Origin: Serratia quinivorans
GTDB lineage: Bacteria > Pseudomonadota > Gammaproteobacteria > Enterobacterales > Enterobacteriaceae
DNA length: 64,000 bases
Assembly (NCBI RefSeq): GCF_946227985.1
Contig: NZ_CAMKGL010000009.1
Span: 62,001 to 126,000, forward strand
Reading direction: 5' to 3'
How positions within the stretch are numbered: the first letter of the stretch is position 1; every line of letters starts with the position of its first letter. Positions 40,251-51,324 of this stretch are shown here, in pieces. The translations under genes and the position numbers were made by a program. The notes under the pieces were generated by a model, which was given only the letters and a program-made list of their open reading frames with translations, was not told the origin of the DNA and did no database searches.

Positions 40251-41042
40251 TTACCAGCAGACAAAACCGCCATCGACGACCAGATCAACACCGGTACAGA
40301 ACGACGCTGCATCACTGGCGAGGAAGAGTGCCGGGCCTGCCATCTCTTCCACTTTTGCCATCCGCTGAAGCGGCGTCTGGCTTTCAAATTCACGTGTCTG
40401 ATGGACCATCTCAGGGCGTGTGTTCATCGGCGTGGCGGTGTATCCCGGGCTGATGGAGTTGACGCGAATCCCTTTGCTGACCCACTCCATTGCGAGACTT
40501 TTGGATAGGTGAATAACACCCGCTTTGGAGCAGTTGTAATGCGCCTGTTCAAGACCGCGATTAACAATAATGCCGGACATGGAGGCGATATTAATAATCG
40601 AGCCTCCACCTGACTCCTGCATCAGTTCGGCTTGCGCTTTACAGGAGTTCCATACGCCGGTGAGGTTAATATCGATAACCCGCTGCCATTGTTCAGTCTC
40701 CATCTCAAGCGCCGGATTGGCATTGGCGATACCGGCCGCGTTAACGGCGATATTGAGGCGTCCGAAGCGGCTTTTGGCCAAGGCGACGCCGGCACGCAGA
40801 TCGCTGTGTTGACGCACATCCCCGGTATAAAAGCAGGCCTGCCCGCCAATCGCCTCGATATTTTTAACAGTTTCAGTAAGGCCACCGTCTTCGCGCAGAT
40901 CAAAGCAGACTACCCGAGCGCCCGCGCTGGCGAGTCCGTAAGCAATCATCTGACCGATGCCGCTGCCTGCACCAGTCACAAAGGCCACGCGGTCCTGCAG
41001 GTTAAACAGCTGTTGAGCAAAATCTTTTGTGATCATAGCCAT
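40251..41042 (-). CDS. Short-chain dehydrogenase/reductase 1 of the sugar cluster
   Basis: Classical SDR of about 263 residues. Cofactor motif TGAGSGIG is at 23-30. The aspartate ending strand 2 (VCFDLRED) predicts NAD(H). NAAG is followed by the catalytic Ser in IASMSGIIVN and by Tyr/Lys in HYNCSKAG; the C-terminus is DLVVDGGFVCW. It resembles polyol dehydrogenases (arabitol 2-dehydrogenase, threitol dehydrogenase) in general form; the substrate is unknown. Last gene of the minus-strand operon. ATG 41042 or 41036 are both possible starts. Likely oxidises an imported polyol, or interconverts ketose and polyol. Confidence 0.85.
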   Translation of the reverse strand: MAMITKDFAQQLFNLQDRVAFVTGAGSGIGQMIAYGLASAGARVVCFDLREDGGLTETVKNIEAIGGQACFYTGDVRQHSDLRAGVALAKSRFGRLNIAVNAAGIANANPALEMETEQWQRVIDINLTGVWNSCKAQAELMQESGGGSIINIASMSGIIVNRGLEQAHYNCSKAGVIHLSKSLAMEWVSKGIRVNSISPGYTATPMNTRPEMVHQTREFESQTPLQRMAKVEEMAGPALFLASDAASFCTGVDLVVDGGFVCW

Positions 41043-41159
41043 CACTCTCTGAATTAGTACCCCGTGGCACAATATGGCGTAAACCGACGGGGAGGAATGT
41101 CCCGGCTCGCAGCTAACGCCTTCCGGGCTACGAATCTGGTTTGTCGTCCCTGATGGGCA

Positions 41160-41957
41160 TTACGACATAATCAGGCCACCGTCGATGTTGATGGTTTGCC
41201 CGGTAAGATAGCGTGCATCGTCTGAAGCGAGAAAAGCCACCAACCCGGCGACATCTTCGGGTTTACCGGCACGCTTCATCGGGATACCTTCGACCCATTC
41301 CGCCATCAGTTCACCTTTGCCATAGCGTTTTTGTTCGGTGCTCAGGGCTTCACCCCATACACGATCGTTGTAATCCCACATGTCGCTTTCGATAATGCCT
41401 GGGCAGAAGGCGTTGACGGTGATATTCCACGGTGCCAGTTCGTGGGCCAGGCTTTGCGTAATACCGATAACGCCCATTTTGCTGGCAGCGTAATGCGGGG
41501 TGTAGATAAAGCCCTGACGACCCTGACCTGACGACGTATTAATCAGGCTGCCGTGTTTTTGCTTCACCATGTATTTGGCCGCTTCGCGGCAGCAGAGCCA
41601 GACGCCAGTGGTGTTAACCGCCAGCACTTTCTCAAAATCGGCTTTCGGCATGCGGTCGTAATAATCGATGGTGATGACACCAGCGTTCTGGATAGAAACA
41701 TCGATAGTGCCGAAACGGGTGGCGGCTTGCTCGTACAACGATTGCACCTGCGCTTCATCAGTGACATCGACCTGCAATGACAGGATCTCGGTCTGGTAAC
41801 GTTGGCGTAAGGTTTCTGCCGTTTCGTGAACGCGCTCGGCGTTGGAGACCATCACCAGGTTTGCACCATCTCGAGCAAAGCGCTCAGCAATTCCCGCGCC
41901 AATCCCGCGGCATGCGCCGGTGATCACGACCGTTTTATTATGGAAATTTCTTTGCAT
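41160..41957 (-). CDS. Short-chain dehydrogenase/reductase 2 of the sugar cluster
   Basis: Classical SDR of 265 residues, distinct from its neighbour. TGACRGIG is at about residues 13-20, and strand 2 ends VMVSNAERV without an acidic residue, so the NAD/NADP choice is not clear. NAGV, NTSSGQGRQG with the catalytic Ser, and HYAASKMG with Tyr/Lys are intact; the end is TGQTINIDGGLIMS. Resembles sorbitol/galactitol 2-dehydrogenase-like enzymes. Two different SDRs in one operon suggest successive oxidations, an oxidation-reduction epimerisation, or two substrates. Start ATG 41957, with GGGAA upstream. Confidence 0.85.
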   Translation of the reverse strand: MQRNFHNKTVVITGACRGIGAGIAERFARDGANLVMVSNAERVHETAETLRQRYQTEILSLQVDVTDEAQVQSLYEQAATRFGTIDVSIQNAGVITIDYYDRMPKADFEKVLAVNTTGVWLCCREAAKYMVKQKHGSLINTSSGQGRQGFIYTPHYAASKMGVIGITQSLAHELAPWNITVNAFCPGIIESDMWDYNDRVWGEALSTEQKRYGKGELMAEWVEGIPMKRAGKPEDVAGLVAFLASDDARYLTGQTINIDGGLIMS

Positions 41958-42014
41958 GTTTTTTCCCTTTTGTATGCCGGACGCAAACGCGTGCGGCGGG
42001 GTAATGAAAGCGTA

Positions 42015-43070
42015 TTAACTGGCAACCTGAGCCGTGGCATGTTTTTCCTCATGGCGACGCATCAGGATGACTTTGTTCTGTAATTTCTGCTGGAATTGGT
42101 CGACGATGACGGCGGTGACAATAACCACCCCCTTAATGACCATTTGCCAGAAGTCGCTGACACCCATCATCACCATGCCGTCAGCAAGGAAGACGATGAC
42201 GAAAGCACCAATAATTGAGCCCGTGACCCGACCACGCCCACCTGCCAGCGCGGTTCCGCCCAGTACGGTGGCCCCGATGGCGTCCATTTCGAACATATTG
42301 CCGGTCATTGGGTGGGCCGTTTGCAGCTGTGAAGCGACGATCAGGCCAACAAATGCGGAGCACAGGCCAGAGAAGGCGTAAACGAATACTTTTGCTTTAA
42401 CTATGGGGACGCCAGCCAGACGAGCAGCGGATTCGTTACCACCAATAGCGTAGATATAGCGACCAAGTGGTGTTTTTGTCGTCAGCCAGTAGCCCAGCAG
42501 CAGGAACCCGATCATCAGCCAGATAGGCAGATAAATGCCCATTAGCGTACCGGAGCCCAGCGTGGCGAAACCGGTATTACCCAGTGCTTCTATCCCATTG
42601 AGATTGGGGTAGGTGCTGCCGTCATTGAACAGCAAGGCAGAACCCCTGGCGACATACATCATGCCCAGCGTACAGATAAAGGGTGCCACGCCGAAACGGG
42701 TGATCACGGCACCGTTAATAAAGCCGACAAGGATGCCGAAGATGGCCACGCACAGAATAACTTCAGGGACGTTGAAGAAGATGACGTTGCCGTTCCATAA
42801 GGGCAGGCCGTTGGTCAATAATGCCCCTGCGACCATTCCGCAGATCCCGGCGACGGCGCCGACAGAGAGGTCAATCCCTCCAGTCAGGATAACCAGCGTC
42901 ATGCCGATGGCCAGCAGGCCGGTGATGGCCACGTGCTGAGTCATAATCAGCAGGTTAGATGGGGTCAGGAAATTCGGTACCATCACGCTGAAAAACGCGA
43001 TAACCAGCAGCAGAGCGATAAAAGTTCTGGCCTTCAGCAGGTACATATAAATCATATATTTCTGGTTCAT
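42015..43070 (-). CDS. Ribose-type ABC transporter permease
   Basis: 351-residue inner-membrane permease of the RbsC/BPD_transp_2 family with about nine to ten helices. Typical segments are ILTGGIDLSVGAVAGICGM near residue 62 and the coupling region AIGGNESAARLAGVPIVKAKVFVYAF around residue 210. Belongs with the adjacent ATPase (43088) and binding protein (45298). Single permease, so it should act as a homodimer. Confidence 0.92.
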   Translation of the reverse strand: MNQKYMIYMYLLKARTFIALLLVIAFFSVMVPNFLTPSNLLIMTQHVAITGLLAIGMTLVILTGGIDLSVGAVAGICGMVAGALLTNGLPLWNGNVIFFNVPEVILCVAIFGILVGFINGAVITRFGVAPFICTLGMMYVARGSALLFNDGSTYPNLNGIEALGNTGFATLGSGTLMGIYLPIWLMIGFLLLGYWLTTKTPLGRYIYAIGGNESAARLAGVPIVKAKVFVYAFSGLCSAFVGLIVASQLQTAHPMTGNMFEMDAIGATVLGGTALAGGRGRVTGSIIGAFVIVFLADGMVMMGVSDFWQMVIKGVVIVTAVIVDQFQQKLQNKVILMRRHEEKHATAQVAS

Positions 43071-43087
43071 GATGGATTCCAGCCTGA

Positions 43088-44632
43088 TTAATCTTGAGGT
43101 GTTGAAGCCGCGATTAATTTTTCGCGGGTAACCGCATGACGCGGTAAATCAGCGGTAATACGGCCATCGGCCATCACCAAAATTCGATCCGCCAGCGCCA
43201 TGACTTCATCGAGTTCCGATGAAGAGAACATCACTGCCAGTCCCTGTTGGGCCATTTTGCCTATCAGGTGATAAACGTCAGTTTTGGCGCCGACGTCGAT
43301 GCCGCGAGTGGGCTCATCGAGAAAAACAACCTGTGGTTGTGTCATTAGGGCTTTGCCTAACACCACTTTTTGTTGATTGCCACCGCTTAAGGAGGTAATC
43401 GGCAGTTCAGGGTCGCTGACTTTGATAGCGAGCTCGCGAATCATCTCTTTTACCCTGGCGTGTTCTTTTTGTGGGTTCAGCCATTTCCACGCCTGGCGAA
43501 AACCTTTCAGGCTAAAATCCGATAAGGTCATATTCGATTGAATCGACATAATCTGCACCACGCCTTCGCCCTGTCGGTCTTCGGGAACTAACGCCAGCCC
43601 TTTTTTAAGCCGGGTTTGAAACTGGGCTTTGCCAATATTTTCGCCATTAAGATAGACGCTGCCATTCTGGCAAGGCATCAGCCCTATCAGGCCTTTAAAC
43701 AGCTCCGTGCGCCCGGCACCCAGCAGGCCGTAAATACCAATCACTTCCCCTTTACTCAGCGTGAAGCTCACATTGTTGAGCTTATATCCGCCGCTGTGGT
43801 GTAGCGCCGTCAAACCTTCAACAGCCAGCACCGCTTGGCCTTTCGGGGCAGGCTGATAGTCGAAATGTTTTTTCTTATCGCCAACCATCTGTTCGATAAT
43901 CCAGGGAATGCTGGCATCGCTGACATTACGTTCACTGATAAAGCGTCCATCGCGGAAAATGGTAATGTGATCGCCAATTTCCATCAGTTCTTCCAGTCGA
44001 TGGGAAATATAAATAATGGTGACGCCGCGACGTTTAAGCTGCTCAATAACGTTAAACAGAATTTTGACTTCCGACTGGCTCAGCGCAGAAGTAGGTTCAT
44101 CCATGATTAATACACGAGTGTCTTTTGAAAGTGCGCGTGCAATTTCGACCAACTGCTGGTGGCCGATACCTAATTCGCCAAGCTGAGTATAAGGATCGAC
44201 ATTGAGCTCCAGTCTTTCCAGTAATTTTTTTGCTAACTCATATTGATAATTTTCGTTGATCTTCCCTTTCTGAAAGAACTCGTTAGCCATAAATATATTA
44301 TCCATGATGTTCATGTTCGGGAATAAATTTAATTCCTGAAAAATGATGCTGATTCCCTTTTTTTCGGCTTGGTGAGTCGAACTAAGGATAACCGGACTGT
44401 CATCAAGAATAATTTGACCGGAGGAAGGGGTTTCAACGCCAGCAAGCATTTTCATCATGGTGGATTTACCCGCACCATTCTCTCCGATCAGTACGTTTAC
44501 TTTATTTCGATAGACCCGATAATTCACGTTATCCAAGGCCACTACCCCTGGATAGACACGTGACAACTCACGGGTTTCGATAATAACTTCAGATTCGACT
44601 GGTTGGGGAGTGACGAGTTCTTGCTGTTGCAT
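43088..44632 (-). CDS. Ribose-type ABC transporter ATPase (two fused NBDs)
   Basis: 514-residue RbsA/MglA-type protein with two nucleotide-binding domains. The first has Walker A GENGAGKST, a degenerate signature in GIGHQQLVEIARAL, and Walker B VLIMDEPTSAL. The second has the degenerate P-loop GLLGAGRTE usual for this family, signature LSGGNQQKV, and VFLDEPTRGIDVGAK. Such asymmetric ATPases power import of monosaccharides and polyols. Three bases after the DUF2291 lipoprotein gene. Confidence 0.93.
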   Translation of the reverse strand: MQQQELVTPQPVESEVIIETRELSRVYPGVVALDNVNYRVYRNKVNVLIGENGAGKSTMMKMLAGVETPSSGQIILDDSPVILSSTHQAEKKGISIIFQELNLFPNMNIMDNIFMANEFFQKGKINENYQYELAKKLLERLELNVDPYTQLGELGIGHQQLVEIARALSKDTRVLIMDEPTSALSQSEVKILFNVIEQLKRRGVTIIYISHRLEELMEIGDHITIFRDGRFISERNVSDASIPWIIEQMVGDKKKHFDYQPAPKGQAVLAVEGLTALHHSGGYKLNNVSFTLSKGEVIGIYGLLGAGRTELFKGLIGLMPCQNGSVYLNGENIGKAQFQTRLKKGLALVPEDRQGEGVVQIMSIQSNMTLSDFSLKGFRQAWKWLNPQKEHARVKEMIRELAIKVSDPELPITSLSGGNQQKVVLGKALMTQPQVVFLDEPTRGIDVGAKTDVYHLIGKMAQQGLAVMFSSSELDEVMALADRILVMADGRITADLPRHAVTREKLIAASTPQD

Positions 44633-44634
44633 TT

Positions 44635-45255
44635 TTATTTCCCTCCCAAACGAGCAATTTTCGCTGGTGTAATATCAGGAATGGTTTGCGGAATATCCCA
44701 GGCCGAGAATACGCCATACACTTGCGTTATTTCGCCCGTTTTAATTTGTGCCGCTTGAATCATTTTTACCGCATGTTCGTTAATGGCCTGGCCATATTCG
44801 CCAAACAGAACCTGATCGTTAAAGTCTTGATAACTGGTACCCTGGTAGGCGTCGCGTAACAGCGTGCCGCGCAGCGTGGGGCCAATTTGCACCACAACAT
44901 TGCTGCCGTCGGTATCCTGAATCGTCATTTTTCCGCTACGGGAAGTGGAGTCAATATGAGTGATATTGCCTTCAACCTTGACGTAAAAAATGCACGGATT
45001 CTCATCCTGAGCGCGATAGCCCAATGTTTTGCAAGCGCTATCAATATCTTTAGCCGCACGTAGGGCAGCCATTAACTCGGCAACGGGACGGGCCTGAGAA
45101 ACGACCTGTGGAACCACTTTGTCTTGCCACGTCTGATCGATATTCGCCATATGCGGATTGGGCGGGGATTTAAGATCGGCCAGCTCTTGCTGAGAGACAA
45201 TACGACAGCCCCCAAGCGCAAGAACGGCCAGTGCCAGCCAGGTTTTTTTATACAT
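44635..45255 (-). CDS. DUF2291 lipoprotein linked to the ABC importer
   Basis: 206 residues with a lipoprotein signal peptide (MYKKTWLALAVLALGGC, lipobox LGGC, Cys17) and a globular region of the DUF2291 family. DUF2291 genes recur inside ribose-type ABC transporter operons of polyol and apiose type in alpha- and gamma-proteobacteria, but no function is assigned. Its place between binding-protein and ATPase genes suggests an accessory part of the importer, for instance a membrane-tethered partner of the binding protein. That role is inference. Confidence 0.82.
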   Translation of the reverse strand: MYKKTWLALAVLALGGCRIVSQQELADLKSPPNPHMANIDQTWQDKVVPQVVSQARPVAELMAALRAAKDIDSACKTLGYRAQDENPCIFYVKVEGNITHIDSTSRSGKMTIQDTDGSNVVVQIGPTLRGTLLRDAYQGTSYQDFNDQVLFGEYGQAINEHAVKMIQAAQIKTGEITQVYGVFSAWDIPQTIPDITPAKIARLGGK

Positions 45256-45297
45256 AAACTCTCCTATACGCCTCCGAAGAGGCGCAACAACCCGAAC

Positions 45298-46233
45298 TCA
45301 GGATTTGATATTGAAGTCCTGAACTTTGTCTGCATTGTCTTTGGTAATCAGAATGCCGCGGAACATAACGCGTTGTTTCGCTGGATTTTCACCTTTTTGC
45401 AGGTAGTTATCGAGATCGGTAACGCCCTGAGCGGCAATAGCCTGCGCCTGGAGCATCACCGTGGCTTGCAGGGTTCCGGCTTTAACGGCATCGCGTTCAT
45501 CGTTACTGCCATCAATACCAACAACTACAACATCGCTGCGATTCGCGGCTTTCAGCGCGGCAATAACGCCCAGAGCGACAGGGCCGTTGCCGCAAATCAC
45601 GCCTTTCACGTCAGGATGTGCCTGTAAAATACTGTCCATAATGCGTTTGCCGTCGATTAACGTCCCTTTGGCATCTTGCTTCGCGACGCTGATCATATCC
45701 GGGTATTGGTCGATGACCTGATGGAAAGATTTAGAACGGGTAACACAGTTTTTATCTGCCAGGTTACAGGTCAGTTCGGCATATTTTCCTTTTTCCGTCA
45801 TCTTCTCAACAAATACGTTGGCGACTTCAGAGCCGGCCTGAAAGTTATTATGGGTGATTTGTTCAAGAGCGACGTCATCAACAGGGATTTCCCTGTTAAT
45901 TAATATCACAGGAATGCCTGCTTTCTTCGCTTTCTCAATTGCCGCTACGCTGGCGGTTGAGTCGGCATTATCAAGAATAATCCCCTGAACTTTTTTACCT
46001 ATGGCGGTATCAATCAGTTCATTCTGTTTTTTTACATCTTCACCATGTGAAAGAATTGTGGTTTGGTATCCCAGTTCTTTTGCTTTTTCGCTGGCACCTT
46101 TGGCTTCAGAAGCGTAATACGGATTATCCAGCGAATTTACCATGATCATGATGGTGCCTTTTTCCACTGCCTGAGCAGTAAAAGAAAAGGCGGTCAGGGT
46201 AGCAACAGTTAAAAGCGTTAAACGTAATTTCAT
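45298..46233 (-). CDS. Ribose-type periplasmic substrate-binding protein
   Basis: 311 residues of the RbsB/Peripla_BP_4 family. Signal peptide with cleavage after about residue 22 (FTAQA). Features are MVNSLDNPYYASEAKGA, GIILDNADSTASVAAIEKA, VILINREIP and GVICGNGPVALGVIAALKA near the hinge, typical of pentose or polyol binders. Two cysteines in LTCNLADKNCV may form a disulfide. First structural gene of the transporter block, 133 bases after the kinase. The ligand is not predictable from sequence alone. Confidence 0.92.
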   Translation of the reverse strand: MKLRLTLLTVATLTAFSFTAQAVEKGTIMIMVNSLDNPYYASEAKGASEKAKELGYQTTILSHGEDVKKQNELIDTAIGKKVQGIILDNADSTASVAAIEKAKKAGIPVILINREIPVDDVALEQITHNNFQAGSEVANVFVEKMTEKGKYAELTCNLADKNCVTRSKSFHQVIDQYPDMISVAKQDAKGTLIDGKRIMDSILQAHPDVKGVICGNGPVALGVIAALKAANRSDVVVVGIDGSNDERDAVKAGTLQATVMLQAQAIAAQGVTDLDNYLQKGENPAKQRVMFRGILITKDNADKVQDFNIKS

Positions 46234-46366
46234 GACAATGTTCTCTCTTGGTTGTTATTGTCGGGTACGGTGAAACAACGTATGGCCTGAATATCAAATT
46301 TATGGGCGAGGGGCTCCTTTGGTTGATGATTAAGGTTCGTCGCGCACGAAGATTCCCTGGTGGGCG

Positions 46367-47887
46367 TCAGGTGGACGATGCCGGTTTCCATAATGTTCTG
46401 TTCACCGCATGGCGCCACTCCTGCCATCTTTTTTGCAGACGCTGATGGCGGTCCATATCGGGGATAAATTCACTGTGTTCGGTTAAAAAAACCTTCAGGT
46501 CGGTAATCGATCCTGGTGTGAGGGCTTTGCGGGCGAGTAGGGCGGCACCAATCGCCGAAAGTTCGGCAACATCGCTGCGCATTACCGGGCAACCCAGCAG
46601 GTCTGCCTGATACTGCATTAACCAGTCGTTTTTCGTCGGGCCGCCGTCGACCATTAATGCCGTCAAGTGAAAGTCATCCTGCTGGCGCATGGCGGCAACC
46701 ACATCGGCGATTTGATAGGTAATTGACTCCAGTGCCGCGCGAATCAGATGCGCGCGTTTGACACCACGACTCAGGCCACAAATAACGCCGCGAGCGCTGT
46801 CATCCCACCAGGGAGCGCCAAGGCCGGTTAACGCTGGCACAAAATAGACGCCCAATGTAGATCCCACAGAGGCGGGCAGGGTGTTGAGTTCATGTGCCAG
46901 TTCGACATCGGAAAGCTCGCTTAAGCCCGTGCTGTCTGCCATCCATGCAACGGCATCACCGGTATGTGGGATATTGCCCTCCAGCCCATAGGTGATGCGA
47001 TCGCCATCGTGCCAGGCAATGGTGGTGGCCAGTGCGTCAATATCGCATTTTGCCGATTGCACTGGTGCCATCACCGAGGAACCTGTCCCGTAGGTGGCTT
47101 TAACGCAGCCCAATTCGCCGAGGGCGTGGCCGAACAGCGCGGCATGCGAATCCCCTACCATCGCCATCACCGGAATACCATCCGGGATCGCGTTTAACCC
47201 GCAGGTATAACCATAAAATCCGCTGGAAGGTTTAATCTCCGGTAGTGCGGCAAGAGGGATCTGGAACAGCGCCAGCATCTCGTTGTCCCACTGCCCGGTT
47301 TGCAGGTTCAGCAACTGGGTGCGTGCGGCATTTGAGTGATCGCAATAGAACGCCTTACCCTGGGTTAAATTCCACAGCAGCCAGCTATCGATAGTGCCGA
47401 GACAAATTTCACCGCGTTCTGCGAGCCGGTGGCCTTCGGGAACAGATCCCAGCAACCAGCGCATTTTTGATGCAGAGAACAGGGGGGCAATCGGCAGTCC
47501 GGTGGTGGTTTTAATTTGCGCTTCTTTGTTATCGCGACGCAGTTCATCGCAAAAAGCGGCGCTGCGGGTACACTGCCATGAGATGGCTGCGTTAATTGGT
47601 TTACCGCTCTGGCGATACCAGCCAATAGCGGTCTCACGCTGGTTGCTGATAGCTAATGCGGCAATGTTTTCTGCGCCAACGTGTTCGACGGCCTTAGCGA
47701 TAACGTCGAGAGAGGCTTCGACCAATAGCTCGCCCGACTGCTCGACCCAGCCATCGCGCGGCGTTTGAATTGCCAGCGGTTGAGAGAATTTCACCACTAT
47801 GTGGCCGCGGCTATCGAGTACGACGGCTTTGGCGTTAGTGGTGCCTTCGTCCAGTGCAATGATGAACTCTTTACGTGTTGCCTGCAT
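46367..47887 (-). CDS. FGGY-family carbohydrate kinase
   Basis: 506-residue sugar kinase with the ATPase fold. It has the N-terminal phosphate-1 motif ALDEGTTNAKAVVLD, DGWVEQSGEL, ISNQRET and WQCTRS as in glycerol kinase, then MVGDSHAALFGHALGE, YGTGSS, and the C-terminal adenosine motif MVDGGPTKNDWLMQ. Closest in character to glycerol/xylulose/erythritol (EryA) kinases, so the substrate is likely a small polyol or ketose. ATG 47887 is chosen because TAGGAGACAA lies upstream; the frame extends to 47983 without support. First gene of the transporter operon. Confidence 0.9.
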   Translation of the reverse strand: MQATRKEFIIALDEGTTNAKAVVLDSRGHIVVKFSQPLAIQTPRDGWVEQSGELLVEASLDVIAKAVEHVGAENIAALAISNQRETAIGWYRQSGKPINAAISWQCTRSAAFCDELRRDNKEAQIKTTTGLPIAPLFSASKMRWLLGSVPEGHRLAERGEICLGTIDSWLLWNLTQGKAFYCDHSNAARTQLLNLQTGQWDNEMLALFQIPLAALPEIKPSSGFYGYTCGLNAIPDGIPVMAMVGDSHAALFGHALGELGCVKATYGTGSSVMAPVQSAKCDIDALATTIAWHDGDRITYGLEGNIPHTGDAVAWMADSTGLSELSDVELAHELNTLPASVGSTLGVYFVPALTGLGAPWWDDSARGVICGLSRGVKRAHLIRAALESITYQIADVVAAMRQQDDFHLTALMVDGGPTKNDWLMQYQADLLGCPVMRSDVAELSAIGAALLARKALTPGSITDLKVFLTEHSEFIPDMDRHQRLQKRWQEWRHAVNRTLWKPASST

Positions 47888-48004
47888 TAGGTTGTCTCCT
47901 GAGTCACATTTTGTCCTGGCGCGGGGGGAAATGTAGGCATTCCTCTTTCTCGCATTGCTGCCTGGCAGGTCATGTTGTGACAATTCGTTTTCACTGGTTT
48001 AATC

Positions 48005-48029
48005 ACTGAATATATATTCGATAGTGATT
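48005..48029 (+). promoter_or_regulatory. Operator copy 1 (GAATATATATTC element) upstream of the kinase operon
   Basis: A 25-bp element with the palindromic core GAATATATATTC (48008-48019) and, five bases later, GTGATT. It is flanked by AATCACT (48001-48007) and its complement AGTGATT (48023-48029). It matches copy 2 at 49366-49390 in about 21 of 25 positions. On the minus strand a -10-like TAAATA lies just upstream, so a bound repressor would cover the transcription start. Likely operator of the SorC regulator. The rest of the 361-base gap (47888-48248) holds the CRP site and no gene. Confidence 0.72.
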
Positions 48030-48083
48030 ATTTATTTAACACCTTAGCCAGAAACTTCACGTCGGGCTACAGGAAAAATCATC

Positions 48084-48105
48084 AATTGTGCTGGCAATCA
48101 CACTT
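48084..48105 (-). promoter_or_regulatory. CRP site upstream of the kinase-transporter operon
   Basis: TTGTGC-TGGCAA-TCACA is one base from the TGTGA-N6-TCACA consensus. Its centre lies about 80 bases upstream of operator copy 1 in the direction of the kinase, a plausible class I activator position for catabolite control. Confidence 0.65.
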
Positions 48106-48248
48106 ATCCGATCGAGGAAGCTTCCGGATGCGGGTGAAAGAGAGTGAGGCTTGGTATGATTATCACATTGAAATGTATATATTTATTTTCAGTTCCTTTA
48201 CGCTCGGGATAAAGCGTAAAGGTTTTGAGAAAGAGTTGGCTGGGGAAA

Positions 48249-49199
48249 TTAACCGGCGACAAGCAGGCGCGCGGTTGGGTAATCCGTGATTAAAACATCG
48301 ATATAACCACCCGATAGCGCACCTTTGATAGCCGCAACCTTATCGGCCCCACCAGCAAGGGCAACCACATTAGGGCACTTTTTCACTTTCTCCAGCGCCA
48401 TACCGATAACCGGGTCTTCATCATCGCGTAACACAGCCTGGCCGTTTTTATCGTAGTAGTGCAGACAAATGTCGCCGACCGCTCCGCGTTCCGCCAACAC
48501 CTGGAGCATATCTTCGTGGTAGTAGTTTCCTGAGGTTTTGAGCAATTGTGAGGGTTCGAGGATGCCAATCCCGACGATGGCAATGTCGACTTCATCGAAG
48601 CGAGCAATCACATTGGCGACATCTTTACTGGCAACGAGACGATTTTTTTCCTCCGTCGAGCCTTCAATGCTCTGGGACGGCAGCAGCCAGGCATCACAGT
48701 TCAGATGTTGCGCCAGGGTTTGAGTGAGGATGGTTGCTTGCACGTTACCATTAGGCCCTACACCGCCCAGCAGTTGAATAACGCCGTTCGCCTTCAGGTT
48801 CTGGGCGTGAACCTCATCGACCATGGCGCGGATTGTTGAACTCCACGAAGAGACACCAATCAGATCTTTCGGCCGTAATCGAGTTTCCAGATAGTGGGCG
48901 GCGGCGGAACCGATGGCGCGTTTAATCGTGTGATCACTGGCGTCCTCTTCGGTATCCACCACGATGGCTTGTTTAATTCCGTAGCGATCTTCCAGGCCTT
49001 TTTCAAGATTCAGGAAAATATTCGATGGCTGAACAACGCTAATTTTGACCACGCCCTCCTTTTGGCAACGCGTAATCGCTCGGGAGATAAATGACTGAGA
49101 AAGCGAGAGAATTTGAGCAATATCGGACTGCTTTCGTCCTTCAAGATAGTAAAGCGTGGCAATCTTAACTAATAGCCGTTGTTCATCCTGCTTAGCCAT
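48249..49199 (-). CDS. SorC-family sugar-binding transcriptional regulator
   Basis: 316 residues. N-terminal helix-turn-helix at about 8-55 (YLEGRKQSDIAQILSLSQ then SFISRAITRCQKEG), followed by a SorC/DeoR-type effector-binding domain (about 60-316) with GVSSWSSTIRAMVDE, LLGGVGPNGNVQ and VALAGGADKVAAIKGALSGG. The family includes SorC, LsrR and the erythritol regulator EryD; ligands are usually phosphorylated sugars made in the pathway. It lies between two copies of the GAATATATATTC element and is read towards the kinase operon. Predicted repressor of both units, relieved by a kinase product. Confidence 0.9.
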   Translation of the reverse strand: MAKQDEQRLLVKIATLYYLEGRKQSDIAQILSLSQSFISRAITRCQKEGVVKISVVQPSNIFLNLEKGLEDRYGIKQAIVVDTEEDASDHTIKRAIGSAAAHYLETRLRPKDLIGVSSWSSTIRAMVDEVHAQNLKANGVIQLLGGVGPNGNVQATILTQTLAQHLNCDAWLLPSQSIEGSTEEKNRLVASKDVANVIARFDEVDIAIVGIGILEPSQLLKTSGNYYHEDMLQVLAERGAVGDICLHYYDKNGQAVLRDDEDPVIGMALEKVKKCPNVVALAGGADKVAAIKGALSGGYIDVLITDYPTARLLVAG

Positions 49200-49272
49200 A
49201 TATTTCCCCGAAAATCATTTACGTGCAGCCATTATGTTAGAGCTATTTATCATACGCGAAATGAACAGACAT

Positions 49273-49297
49273 TTAAGTGTGATGGATATCTAACTTT
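49273..49297 (+). promoter_or_regulatory. Weak CRP-like site in the regulator-transketolase gap
   Basis: AGTGTGATGGATATCTAAC carries a perfect left half TGTGA but a poor right half. The 366-base gap (49200-49565) between the divergent regulator and transketolase genes has this, operator copy 2, and no ORF. Confidence 0.3.
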
Positions 49298-49365
49298 CAC
49301 CAATACTCAAAATCAGCTATGGACAAAAACAGAACAGCGATCGCATAATTGAATAAAGAATCGTT

Positions 49366-49390
49366 ATTGAATATATATTCATTGGTGATT
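49366..49390 (+). promoter_or_regulatory. Operator copy 2 (GAATATATATTC element) upstream of the transketolase genes
   Basis: Core GAATATATATTC (49369-49380) with GTGATT five bases later, same spacing and orientation as copy 1. Located about 175 bases upstream of the transketolase start. Sharing of this element by both units ties the divergent transketolase genes to the transport/kinase operon. Confidence 0.72.
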
Positions 49391-49565
49391 CCAGGTCAAC
49401 TCAAACAGTATCCAGGCGCAGATAAGTCTGGTGGTAAGGAGGCTGAATGTTCCTGAGTATGATGCAGCGGCGGAAGCCTTGCGATGCCTTGTCTGGGGAT
49501 GTCTGGTTTTTTTAGTCCCTGTCGGAATAAATATTCCAAGTTGAAAATAAATTCAGAGGTATTAA

Positions 49566-50396
49566 ATGAATCCCTATAGCTATGATGTCCAGGCACTTGA
49601 GCGTAAAGCCCGCGCCATACGTCGCCATATCGTCAGATTGAATGCCAACAGCCCTGCCGGTGGGCATACCGGAGCCGACTTGTCTCAGGTTGAACTGATC
49701 ACCGCACTCTATTTTCGCATTCTGAATGTTGCGCCAGATCGTATCGCTGACGACCAGCGCGACATTTACATCCAGTCCAAAGGCCACGCGGTGGGCTGCT
49801 ATTACTGCGTACTGGCCGAAGCGGGTTTCTTCCCCGTTGACTGGCTGGAGACTTATCAGCATGCAAACTCCCATCTTCCTGGCCACCCGGTGCGGCAGAA
49901 AACCCCGGGTATAGAACTCAACACCGGAGCGCTGGGTCACGGCTTGCCCGTTGCCGTGGGGTTGGCGCTTGCTGCCAAAAAAAGCAATAGCGCCCGCCGC
50001 ATCTTTCTAATTACCGGCGATGGCGAACTGACAGAAGGCAGTAACTGGGAAGCTGCGTTGGCTGCAGCGCACTACGGGCTAGATAATCTCGTCATCATTA
50101 ATGACAAGAACAACCTCCAGTTGGCAGGGCCGACCCACGAAATTATGAACACCGATCCGCTGGCCGATAAATGGAAAGCCTTCGGCATGACGGTGACCGA
50201 GTGCCAGGGAAATGACATGGCGTCGGTGGTTGCGACGCTGGAAGGGCTGAAACAGGAAGGTAAACCGAACGTTATTATCGCCAATACCACGAAAGGTGCC
50301 GGTATTTCCTTTATCCAGGGGCGTCCGGAATGGCATCACCGGGTACCGAAAGGCGAAGAAATTGCACTGGCACTGGAGGAACTGAAAGATGAGTAA
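49566..50396 (+). CDS. Transketolase, N-terminal (ThDP-binding) subunit
   Basis: 276-residue first half of a split transketolase. GGHTGADLS near residue 33, SKGHAVGCYY near 75 and NTGALGHGLPVAVGLALAA near 118 belong to the active site. The thiamine-diphosphate motif runs from GDGELTEGSNWEA (about 155) to NDKNN, binding Mg2+ and diphosphate. Two-gene transketolases occur in dedicated pathways such as AptA/AptB of D-apiose use, where they cleave a branched ketose phosphate. Overlaps the C-subunit gene by eight bases. Confidence 0.93.
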   Translation: MNPYSYDVQALERKARAIRRHIVRLNANSPAGGHTGADLSQVELITALYFRILNVAPDRIADDQRDIYIQSKGHAVGCYYCVLAEAGFFPVDWLETYQHANSHLPGHPVRQKTPGIELNTGALGHGLPVAVGLALAAKKSNSARRIFLITGDGELTEGSNWEAALAAAHYGLDNLVIINDKNNLQLAGPTHEIMNTDPLADKWKAFGMTVTECQGNDMASVVATLEGLKQEGKPNVIIANTTKGAGISFIQGRPEWHHRVPKGEEIALALEELKDE

Positions 50397-51324
50397 TGCA
50401 GAACACCTGGCGAGCGTAATGGTTCAAGCGTTTATTGATGCAGTTGAAAGCGGGGTTGATCTGGTGCCGGTGGTGGCTGACTCAACGTCGACGGCAAAAA
50501 TTGCCCCCTTTATTAAACAATTCCCAGGTCGCCTGGTTAACGTAGGCATCGCCGAGCAAAGCATGGTTGGAACGGCTGCCGGTCTGGCGCTGGGCGGGAA
50601 AGTGGCGGTGACCTGTAACGCTGCTCCCTTCCTGATCTCCCGTGCCAATGAGCAAATTAAAGTCGACGTTTGCTACAACAATACCAACGTCAAACTGTTC
50701 GGTCTCAATGCAGGGGCCAGCTATGGCCCACTGGCTAGCACCCACCATGCGATCGATGATCTGGCAGTGATGCGCGGCTTCGGCAATATTCAGATTTATG
50801 CGCCCTCTTCACCGCGAGAATGTCGGCAGATTATCGATTATGCCATTGGTTATCAGGGGCCGGTTTATATTCGCCTCGATGGCAAGGCGCTGCCGGAACT
50901 CTATGATGAAAGCTATCAGTTTGTACCGGGGGCGGTGGTGACGCTGCGCGAAGGTGAAGACATTGCGCTGGTAGCAACCGGGTCGACGGTACATGAAGTT
51001 GTCGATGCTGCGCAAAGGCTGGTCGACGCAGGGATCCAGGCCAAAGTGGTCAGCGTCCCTTCAATTCGTCCATGCGATACTGCAGCCTTGCTGGTGGCGC
51101 TGAAGTCATGCAAAGCGGTGATAACGGTTGAAGAACATAACGTGAATGGCGGGTTGGGGAGCCTGGTCGCGGAAGTGCTGGCCGAAGCGGGTGTCGGCAT
51201 TCCGCTCAGGCGTCTGGGTATTCCTGATGGAGAATATGCGGCGGCGGCCGATCGCAGCTGGCTGCGTCAGCACCACGGTTTTGACGCGGTGTCTATTGCT
51301 GCGCTGGCGCAGAAGATGCGTTAG
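50389..51324 (+). CDS. Transketolase, C-terminal (pyrimidine-binding) subunit
   Basis: 311-residue second half with the PYR domain and the C-terminal transketolase domain. The catalytic glutamate that activates ThDP is in VNVGIAEQSMVGTAAGLA (about 55). ASYGPLASTHHAIDDLAVMRGF contributes the substrate-binding histidine, and the C-terminal domain has VEEHNVNGGLGSLVAEVLAE. With the adjacent N-subunit it forms a full heteromeric enzyme; length and motifs are intact, so both halves are functional rather than a broken gene. A household transketolase should exist elsewhere. Confidence 0.93.
   Translation: MSNAEHLASVMVQAFIDAVESGVDLVPVVADSTSTAKIAPFIKQFPGRLVNVGIAEQSMVGTAAGLALGGKVAVTCNAAPFLISRANEQIKVDVCYNNTNVKLFGLNAGASYGPLASTHHAIDDLAVMRGFGNIQIYAPSSPRECRQIIDYAIGYQGPVYIRLDGKALPELYDESYQFVPGAVVTLREGEDIALVATGSTVHEVVDAAQRLVDAGIQAKVVSVPSIRPCDTAALLVALKSCKAVITVEEHNVNGGLGSLVAEVLAEAGVGIPLRRLGIPDGEYAAAADRSWLRQHHGFDAVSIAALAQKMR

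Follow-up and report, generated by a model that had tools for sequence, protein, structure and literature searches.

D-apiose is reportedly degraded by a transketolase route, said to have been described by Carter et al. in 2018, which uses the isomerase ApsI and in which apulose 4-phosphate and glyceraldehyde 3-phosphate yield xylulose 5-phosphate and dihydroxyacetone phosphate. A ten-gene set in which apsI is missing has been reported as the D-apiose cluster of Escherichia coli ST131/STc14 and E. fergusonii (Royer et al. 2026, PMC13001218). According to the D-apiose part of that paper, 10 mM D-apiose supported the growth of four carrier strains and of Pectobacterium and not of K-12, and the cluster is put forward as a trait that defines the niche of pandemic E. 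coli lineages; the authors name MetaCyc PWY-8089 for the D-apiose transketolase route, hypothesise that two oxidoreductases replace ApsI, and call for biochemistry (PMC13001218). We analysed this gene set in Serratia quinivorans, at positions 40251 to 51324 of a stretch of 64,000 nucleotides (contig NZ_CAMKGL010000009.1, positions 62,001 to 126,000; hereafter the window). It comprises two short-chain dehydrogenase/reductases (SDR1 and SDR2), an ABC importer with a DUF2291 lipoprotein, an FGGY kinase, a SorC-family regulator and a split transketolase. The set was matched in 629 of 5426 E. coli genomes, in 625 of them over at least 80% of the query, and the same ten genes stand in the same order in E. 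coli ST131 and other Enterobacterales. An earlier note on this DNA had called the regulon uncharacterised, with a substrate that was unknown, and had held that established relatives share only parts of it. Its claim of novelty fails because the neighbourhood search finds the same set, both SDRs included, already published for E. coli, with growth as the ground for its assignment to D-apiose in the D-apiose part of PMC13001218.

With the gene set and its D-apiose assignment already known, what this analysis adds is a comparative case for an entry that has its own importer and two SDRs and feeds a shared apulose core. The locus probably encodes the transketolase route for D-apiose-type compounds in an isomerase-free variant, in which the two SDRs lead to apulose, most likely via apiitol. 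We give somewhat less than an even chance to the further proposal that the SDR branch is a second, separately imported entry into apulose metabolism for an unrecognised natural substrate (apiitol or a non-furanose apiose relative), with redox isomerisation by two SDRs instead of an isomerase, and that the D-apiose entry and the SDR entry were gained and lost independently around one kinase-transketolase-SorC core. No statement of such an entry was found in the searchable literature, most subscription journals lying outside it. The imported compound may be something other than D-apiose itself. Our odds for the isomerase-free variant overlap with those for the first two alternatives weighed below (direct import of apiitol, and plain substitution of the isomerase), as the main statement leaves the ligand open.

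The core shared with ApsI-type clusters

We fetched and laid out 67 loci related to the first transketolase subunit, together with further loci. Type A loci, defined by SDR1, SDR2 and a class-A binding protein, numbered 27 with all marker genes, and their hosts include Klebsiella, Raoultella, Citrobacter, Trabulsiella, Samsonia, E. coli and other Enterobacterales. Type B loci, found in Kosakonia, Phytobacter, Leclercia, C. freundii, Pantoea and others, have a class-B binding protein and no SDRs; they encode a 472-aa protein with an L-fucose isomerase C-terminal domain, which we provisionally take to be ApsI. In agreement with the earlier note, which had described an ApsI-type isomerase as absent, no ApsI homolog at E ≤ 1e-80 was found in the window's own genome (G000; three candidates scored).

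The core genes proved closely related in the two types. In the kinase tree, 24 of the 37 kinases from ApsI-type clusters, a set in which one locus appears twice, were nested within the clade of SDR-cluster kinases. The window kinase (46367..47887, minus strand; PF00370/PF02782) falls in the apulose-kinase clade, which is a matter of tree membership, and its activity on apulose is predicted. Its start is better placed at 47887, giving 1521 bp as in the annotated E. coli ortholog, than at the TTG of the longest frame at 47983. The transketolase is encoded by an AptA-like N-terminal subunit (49566..50396, plus strand; PF00456) and an AptB-like C-terminal subunit (50389..51324, plus strand; PF02779/PF02780). 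In ApsI loci with intact frames, identity to the window's subunits was 72-82% (N) and 67-79% (C). Among solved structures, the two genes matched best the N-terminal and C-terminal chains, respectively, of the Carboxydothermus split transketolase; together with the Pfam results, these matches bear out the dedicated split transketolase that the earlier note had recognised.

The two types also share a palindrome. Exact copies of GAATATATATTC lie upstream of the kinase operon (48008..48019) and of the transketolase operon (49369..49380), and a third site, GAATAAATATTC, with one mismatch, lies just 5' of the transketolase start (49525..49536). The window thus holds three GAATATATATTC-type sites with at most one mismatch, against 0.04 expected, and the two exact copies are the sole ones in the 5.33-Mb genome, which supports the description of the ten genes as one self-contained regulon. 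An exact palindrome within 450 bp upstream of a cluster gene was found in 32/32 SDR1 loci with a class-A binding protein and in 35/40 hand-picked ApsI/class-B loci. Among these 40 loci, which are 39 distinct ones (L094 repeats L040, hence the kinase counted twice), the relaxed form stood within that distance in 40, and an exact copy lay anywhere in the fetched stretch in 36. A relaxed match at the GAATAAATATTC spot occurs in 27 of the 32 listed type-A loci. As judged from sequence, the palindrome may serve the apulose regulon family as its SorC operator, and we infer that the regulator encoded at 48249..49199 (minus strand; PF04198) binds it. Since the kinase, the split transketolase, the SorC regulator and GAATATATATTC are common to the ApsI clusters, the route should end in apulose phosphate; as the common core, they should handle apulose.

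This core bears on a very improbable alternative, a tetritol or linear pentitol route (erythritol, threitol, ribitol) to another ketose. 'Erythritol transport system' is the Joint Genome Institute (JGI) label of some proteins related to the binding protein, and DUF2291 importers also occur in erythritol loci, as such a route would have it. Against this, identity to the counterparts in the ery locus (an EryA-type kinase and the regulator EryD) is as low as 25% for the window kinase and 29% for the regulator, a Pfam search found no EryB- or EryC-like gene among the ten, and the kinase, transketolase and palindrome are those of ApsI clusters. The erythritol/tetritol reading was rejected on the distance of kinase and regulator and on the shared core. 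The substrate class proposed earlier therefore stands in part: a branched C5 compound of the apiose family, with entry as apiitol partly favoured, is retained, and the tetritol/pentitol option is given up. The part considered of the FGGY family paper PMC3245297 makes no mention of apulose, apiose or transketolase.

The two SDRs and the proposed route

SDR2 (41160..41957, minus strand; FabG-like, Pfam SDR match) was the constant member of the SDR pair. In 44 locus rows, representing 43 genes because the SDR2 of Vibrio salinus stands in both L047 and L063, its partner was SDR1 in 37 rows and a GolD/DthD-family SDR in five, and no row had both. Of the remaining two, L047 is a cut locus whose SDR1 appears in the overlapping L063, and the locus L085 is broken. 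The GolD/DthD-family partners are 31-35% identical to SDR1 (40251..41036, minus strand; Pfam adh_short_C2). SDR1 was the only one of the ten proteins to pass NCBIfam cut-offs, with two generic models: PRK06114 (504 bits against a cut-off of 360), which has no named function, and a broad 'glucose 1-dehydrogenase' subfamily.

In this superfamily, an Arg or Lys in the Gly-rich motif is characteristic of NADP enzymes, and an Asp at the end of beta-2 of NAD enzymes. SDR1 carries the NAD-type Asp in 37/37 orthologs. In SDR2, the Gly-rich motif has Arg/Lys in 40 of 44 orthologs and His in two, and was not read in two. Among solved structures, FabG-type reductases are closest to SDR2, and the matches of SDR1 have galactitol dehydrogenase and another polyol dehydrogenase at ranks 7 and 8. 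These features suggest a putative aldose-to-alditol reductase in SDR2 and a putative alditol 2-dehydrogenase (apiitol to apulose) in SDR1.

In the scheme that we infer, as to enzyme steps, step order and imported ligand alike, the dedicated ABC importer would take up a branched C5 compound of the apiose family. SDR2 would reduce its aldehyde to an alditol, most likely apiitol, and SDR1 would oxidise C2 of apiitol to the ketone apulose, so that two redox steps would replace the one-step ApsI. The FGGY kinase would then convert apulose to apulose 4-phosphate, and the two-subunit transketolase would transfer the two-carbon end of apulose 4-phosphate to glyceraldehyde 3-phosphate, with xylulose 5-phosphate and dihydroxyacetone phosphate as the products. 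The SorC regulator would control both divergent operons through the one palindrome. Such a two-step scheme would account both for growth on D-apiose without an isomerase and for the keeping of two SDRs.

An improbable alternative is that the SDRs are not needed for D-apiose, a housekeeping isomerase acting in the E. coli carriers and the SDR/importer part serving an unrelated compound. The D-apiose results of PMC13001218 hold no knockouts, and the K-12 control lacks the whole cluster, so that the growth test cannot isolate the SDRs. This alternative sits poorly with the occurrence of SDR2 beside an FGGY kinase and a split transketolase in Gamma-, Beta- and Alphaproteobacteria.

Importer classes and genomes with both entries

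The importer consists of a permease (42015..43070; PF02653), an ATPase with two ATPase halves (43088..44632; PF00005 in two stretches), the accessory DUF2291 periplasmic lipoprotein (44635..45255; PF10054) and the class-A periplasmic binding protein (45298..46233; PF13407), all on the minus strand. DUF2291 genes also accompany apiose and erythritol importers. In a family sample of 295 genomes, in which the SDR2 search scored eight candidates per genome only, SDR2 was found in 38 genomes and the class-A binding protein in 37, and 36 had both. The importer class therefore goes with the first enzyme, not with the core. Class-B binding proteins also occur in rhizobial D-apiose operons, e.g. in Shinella, and the R. 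etli protein of PDB entries 5ibq and 4ry0, the nearest solved relatives of the window's binding protein, is class B, its gene lying in an OiaX operon on p42f. The ligand of 5ibq is presumably alpha-D-apiose. A single-sequence model of the window's binding protein was poor (mean predicted local distance difference test score, pLDDT, 44.8) and served only for reading the titles of PDB entries.

Identity is 39.9-48.6% between classes A and B and at least 61.9% within either. We compared the pockets at the 16 positions that we take to be the ligand contacts of ribose-binding protein, mapped onto RbsB of the present genome. Class A has the same residue at all 16 positions in 37/37 loci, and class B at 14 of 16 in 38/38. 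Across 109 aligned of 120 listed matches (3001 were found), the class-A pocket varies, gaps aside, at position 132 only. The classes differ (A/B) at N/P9, Y/F15, Y/F16, N/D89, H/S103, N/R132 (variable in class B), G/W164, I/F214 and L/Q235, so that the aromatics at 164 and 214 are missing in class A. In our reading of these sequences, class A may bind something other than furanose D-apiose, or D-apiose in a quite different manner.

One possibility, which we hold to be unlikely though worth weighing, is that the importer takes apiitol, an open-chain polyol, which one SDR converts to apulose, the second SDR adding D-apiose use or serving the other enantiomer and growth on D-apiose being a side ability. 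The invariance of the class-A pocket across the 37 loci and its loss of ring-stacking aromatics (W164 to G, F214 to I) would suit a polyol, as would the N9, Y15 and N89 that class A has in common with the erythritol binder EryG in 6/6 sequences. The replacement of SDR1 by GolD/DthD-family SDRs in some loci, the coexistence of ApsI and SDR2 in 7/295 genomes and the adjoining cluster types of Vibrio salinus point the same way. However, one oxidation needs one SDR, yet SDR2 is the constant one, and the third binding-protein class, described below, retains the aromatic, ribose-binder-like F15, F16, D89, W164, F214 and Q235. The EryG-like pocket was also tried as proof of a polyol ligand and rejected: the pocket shows no enrichment of shared residues (Fisher p 0.67), and at four other pocket positions EryG matches class B. 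Five of the six EryG rows adjoin an FGGY kinase, a glycerol-3-phosphate-dehydrogenase-like gene and DUF2291, and the row from L109 has no annotation. The tree has one clade each for class A (weakly supported, 0.69), class B and EryG, and the branching order among the three is unresolved.

The distribution of the two entries was then compared over the 295 genomes. SDR2 was found in 38 and ApsI in 32, of which 31 had SDR2 only, 25 ApsI only and seven both. Mutual exclusion of the two entries, which had been considered, was not found. In five of the seven double genomes (G076, G197, G271, G068 and G141), one kinase/transketolase set remains for both entries. In G076, G197 and G271, the SDR cluster holds the sole family transketolase N subunit and the sole kinase of the clade, with three palindromes and no SorC gene seen; a second kinase match at 42-43% identity is presumably GlpK. 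The second cluster, fetched for G076 and G271, contains ApsI, its own class-B importer and a SorC gene, without kinase or transketolase. These three genomes are of one genus and are therefore not independent cases. G068 and G141 have a small cluster of class-A importer, GolD/DthD-family SDR and SDR2, with neither kinase nor transketolase in the fetched 19 kb, and a complete ApsI cluster elsewhere in the genome; G068 also has a distant second relative (35%) of the transketolase N subunit. G146 resembles them, but its kinase has a stop and its ApsI stands without other cluster genes within the 19 kb fetched. G096 has a decaying SDR-type cluster (L085), in which SDR2 is interrupted by a stop and SDR1 is missing from the stretch, an ApsI cluster elsewhere (L094), and no class-A binding protein found in its genome; with SDR-type remnants only, it makes no case for two live entries. 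In Vibrio salinus, the SDR and ApsI clusters are neighbours with one kinase across two overlapping loci, as far as those loci extend. These double-entry genomes indicate that the two entries converge on apulose and that neither is a plain stand-in for the other. If the SDR branch is indeed a second entry, a branched alditol or masked apiose would be a real nutrient for gut and plant bacteria, including E. coli ST131; an importer for something other than D-apiose would mean that the nutrient underlying the proposed niche-defining trait is misnamed or incomplete.

Small clusters of class-A importer, GolD/DthD-family SDR and SDR2 were seen at L083:4123-9979, L086:9438-15585 and L087:4224-10094, with no kinase, transketolase or palindrome within the 19 kb fetched. 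They seem to be peripheral additions to an ApsI cluster located at another place in the genome.

Several of these results bear on a reading to which we give no better chances than to direct import of apiitol, namely that importer and SDRs serve D-apiose alone, class A being another solution for the same ligand, perhaps in another ring form, and the two-step scheme holding as it stands. It would be in line with the growth of four carrier strains on D-apiose in the D-apiose part of PMC13001218, with the sense that two SDRs make for an aldose-to-ketose conversion, and with the single entry type of most carrier genomes. It is countered by the presence of both entries in one genome with a shared kinase, and by the pocket switch at nine of 16 positions.

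Some observations weigh against the isomerase-free variant that we prefer. By its pocket, the binding protein belongs to another class than those of ApsI and ApnL/OiaX operons, and the two-step SDR scheme by itself leaves this different importer unexplained. The seven double genomes compare with 4.1 expected under independence, and genomes with ApsI that also keep the SDR entry suggest that it is more than a mere substitute, which would be needless there. The other 13 of the 37 ApsI-type kinases form a separate sister clade. The directions proposed for the SDRs are read from sequence motifs alone; an Asp stands at the NAD-enzyme position in six of the 42 SDR2 rows read, and the five GolD-type partners are without the NAD-type Asp, which weakened a strict NADPH (SDR2)/NAD (SDR1) pair as proof of direction. 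The D-apiose results section of PMC13001218 contains neither knockouts nor enzyme assays, and growth was on 10 mM.

The locus, its spread and the known systems

All ten open reading frames are intact, and their Pfam matches (two SDRs, BPD_transp_2 permease, ABC ATPase, DUF2291 lipoprotein, Peripla_BP_4, FGGY kinase, SorC-type Sugar-bind, Transketolase_N, and Transket_pyr with Transketolase_C) agree with the families expected in the earlier note. They form two divergent blocks: a leftward one in the order kinase, binding protein, DUF2291, ATPase, permease, SDR2 and SDR1, and a rightward one of both transketolase subunits, with the SorC gene between the blocks. Counts of sigma-70 promoters and terminators were near those of shuffled sequence and were not used. 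Between yigL and glpQ, the locus forms an insert of 11.2 kb. Thirty genomes of the genus were searched; in 24 of the 26 with both flanks this gap measures 38-222 bp, and it is 11.2 kb in the other two, the present genome and G297. SDR2 is present in nine of the 30. G+C content is 51.5% within the insert and 56.0% in the rest of the window. The ten genes were probably acquired as a block.

Beyond the Enterobacterales, rhizobial plasmids carry SDR1, SDR2, an FGGY kinase, a split transketolase and a SorC regulator together with a third binding-protein class, which is also found in Marinomonas and Vibrio SDR operons. The rhizobial kinase, transketolase and regulator are 38-47% identical to those of the window. 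A triose-phosphate isomerase gene, which fits dihydroxyacetone phosphate as a product, lies inside the rhizobial SDR operons L076 and L077, and not in L075. Some rhizobia, e.g. R. tropici CIAT 899 and Rhizobium sp. AB2/73, have a binding-protein match of about 50%, the level of typed class-B proteins, on the same or another plasmid; these putative class-B matches would argue against plain redundancy.

L075 to L077 are plasmids of Agrobacterium, Rhizobium and Sinorhizobium, and ribB adjoins the locus in all three. Clusters of a class-A importer, a GolD-type SDR, SDR2 and a split transketolase 44-52% identical to the window's were seen in L090 (G025, of the window's genus) and L078 (Caballeronia). 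Two records look like labelling or binning errors: CP125156.1 (H22), a 5.37-Mb K. pneumoniae record labelled plasmid, and L016, a contig of a 'Sporobacter' metagenome-assembled genome with a Klebsiella-like cluster.

Among the described systems, the ery locus of Rhizobium resembles the present one in its FGGY kinase, SorC-type regulator and DUF2291-type importer, as seen in part of PMC3599248; it differs in its EryB/EryC enzymes, and the stretch viewed holds no split transketolase. The rhizobial D-apiose oxidation operons (Gfo/Idh dehydrogenase, ApnL, OiaX) have the DUF2291-type importer in common with the window, whereas their binding protein is class B and the stretches viewed contain neither FGGY kinase nor split transketolase. 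ApnL and OiaX were not found among the present ten genes in the Pfam search, and both scored above cut-off in the Shinella locus L080. The E. coli ST131 cluster (L006) is the same system, with two SDRs, no ApsI and proteins 81-95% identical to those of the window; it lies beside entD, whereas the present cluster lies between yigL and glpQ. The ApsI route shares with the present locus the FGGY kinase, the split transketolase AptA/AptB, the SorC regulator, the DUF2291-type importer and the palindrome, and the present locus differs from it in having SDR1 and SDR2 instead of ApsI and a binding protein of another class.

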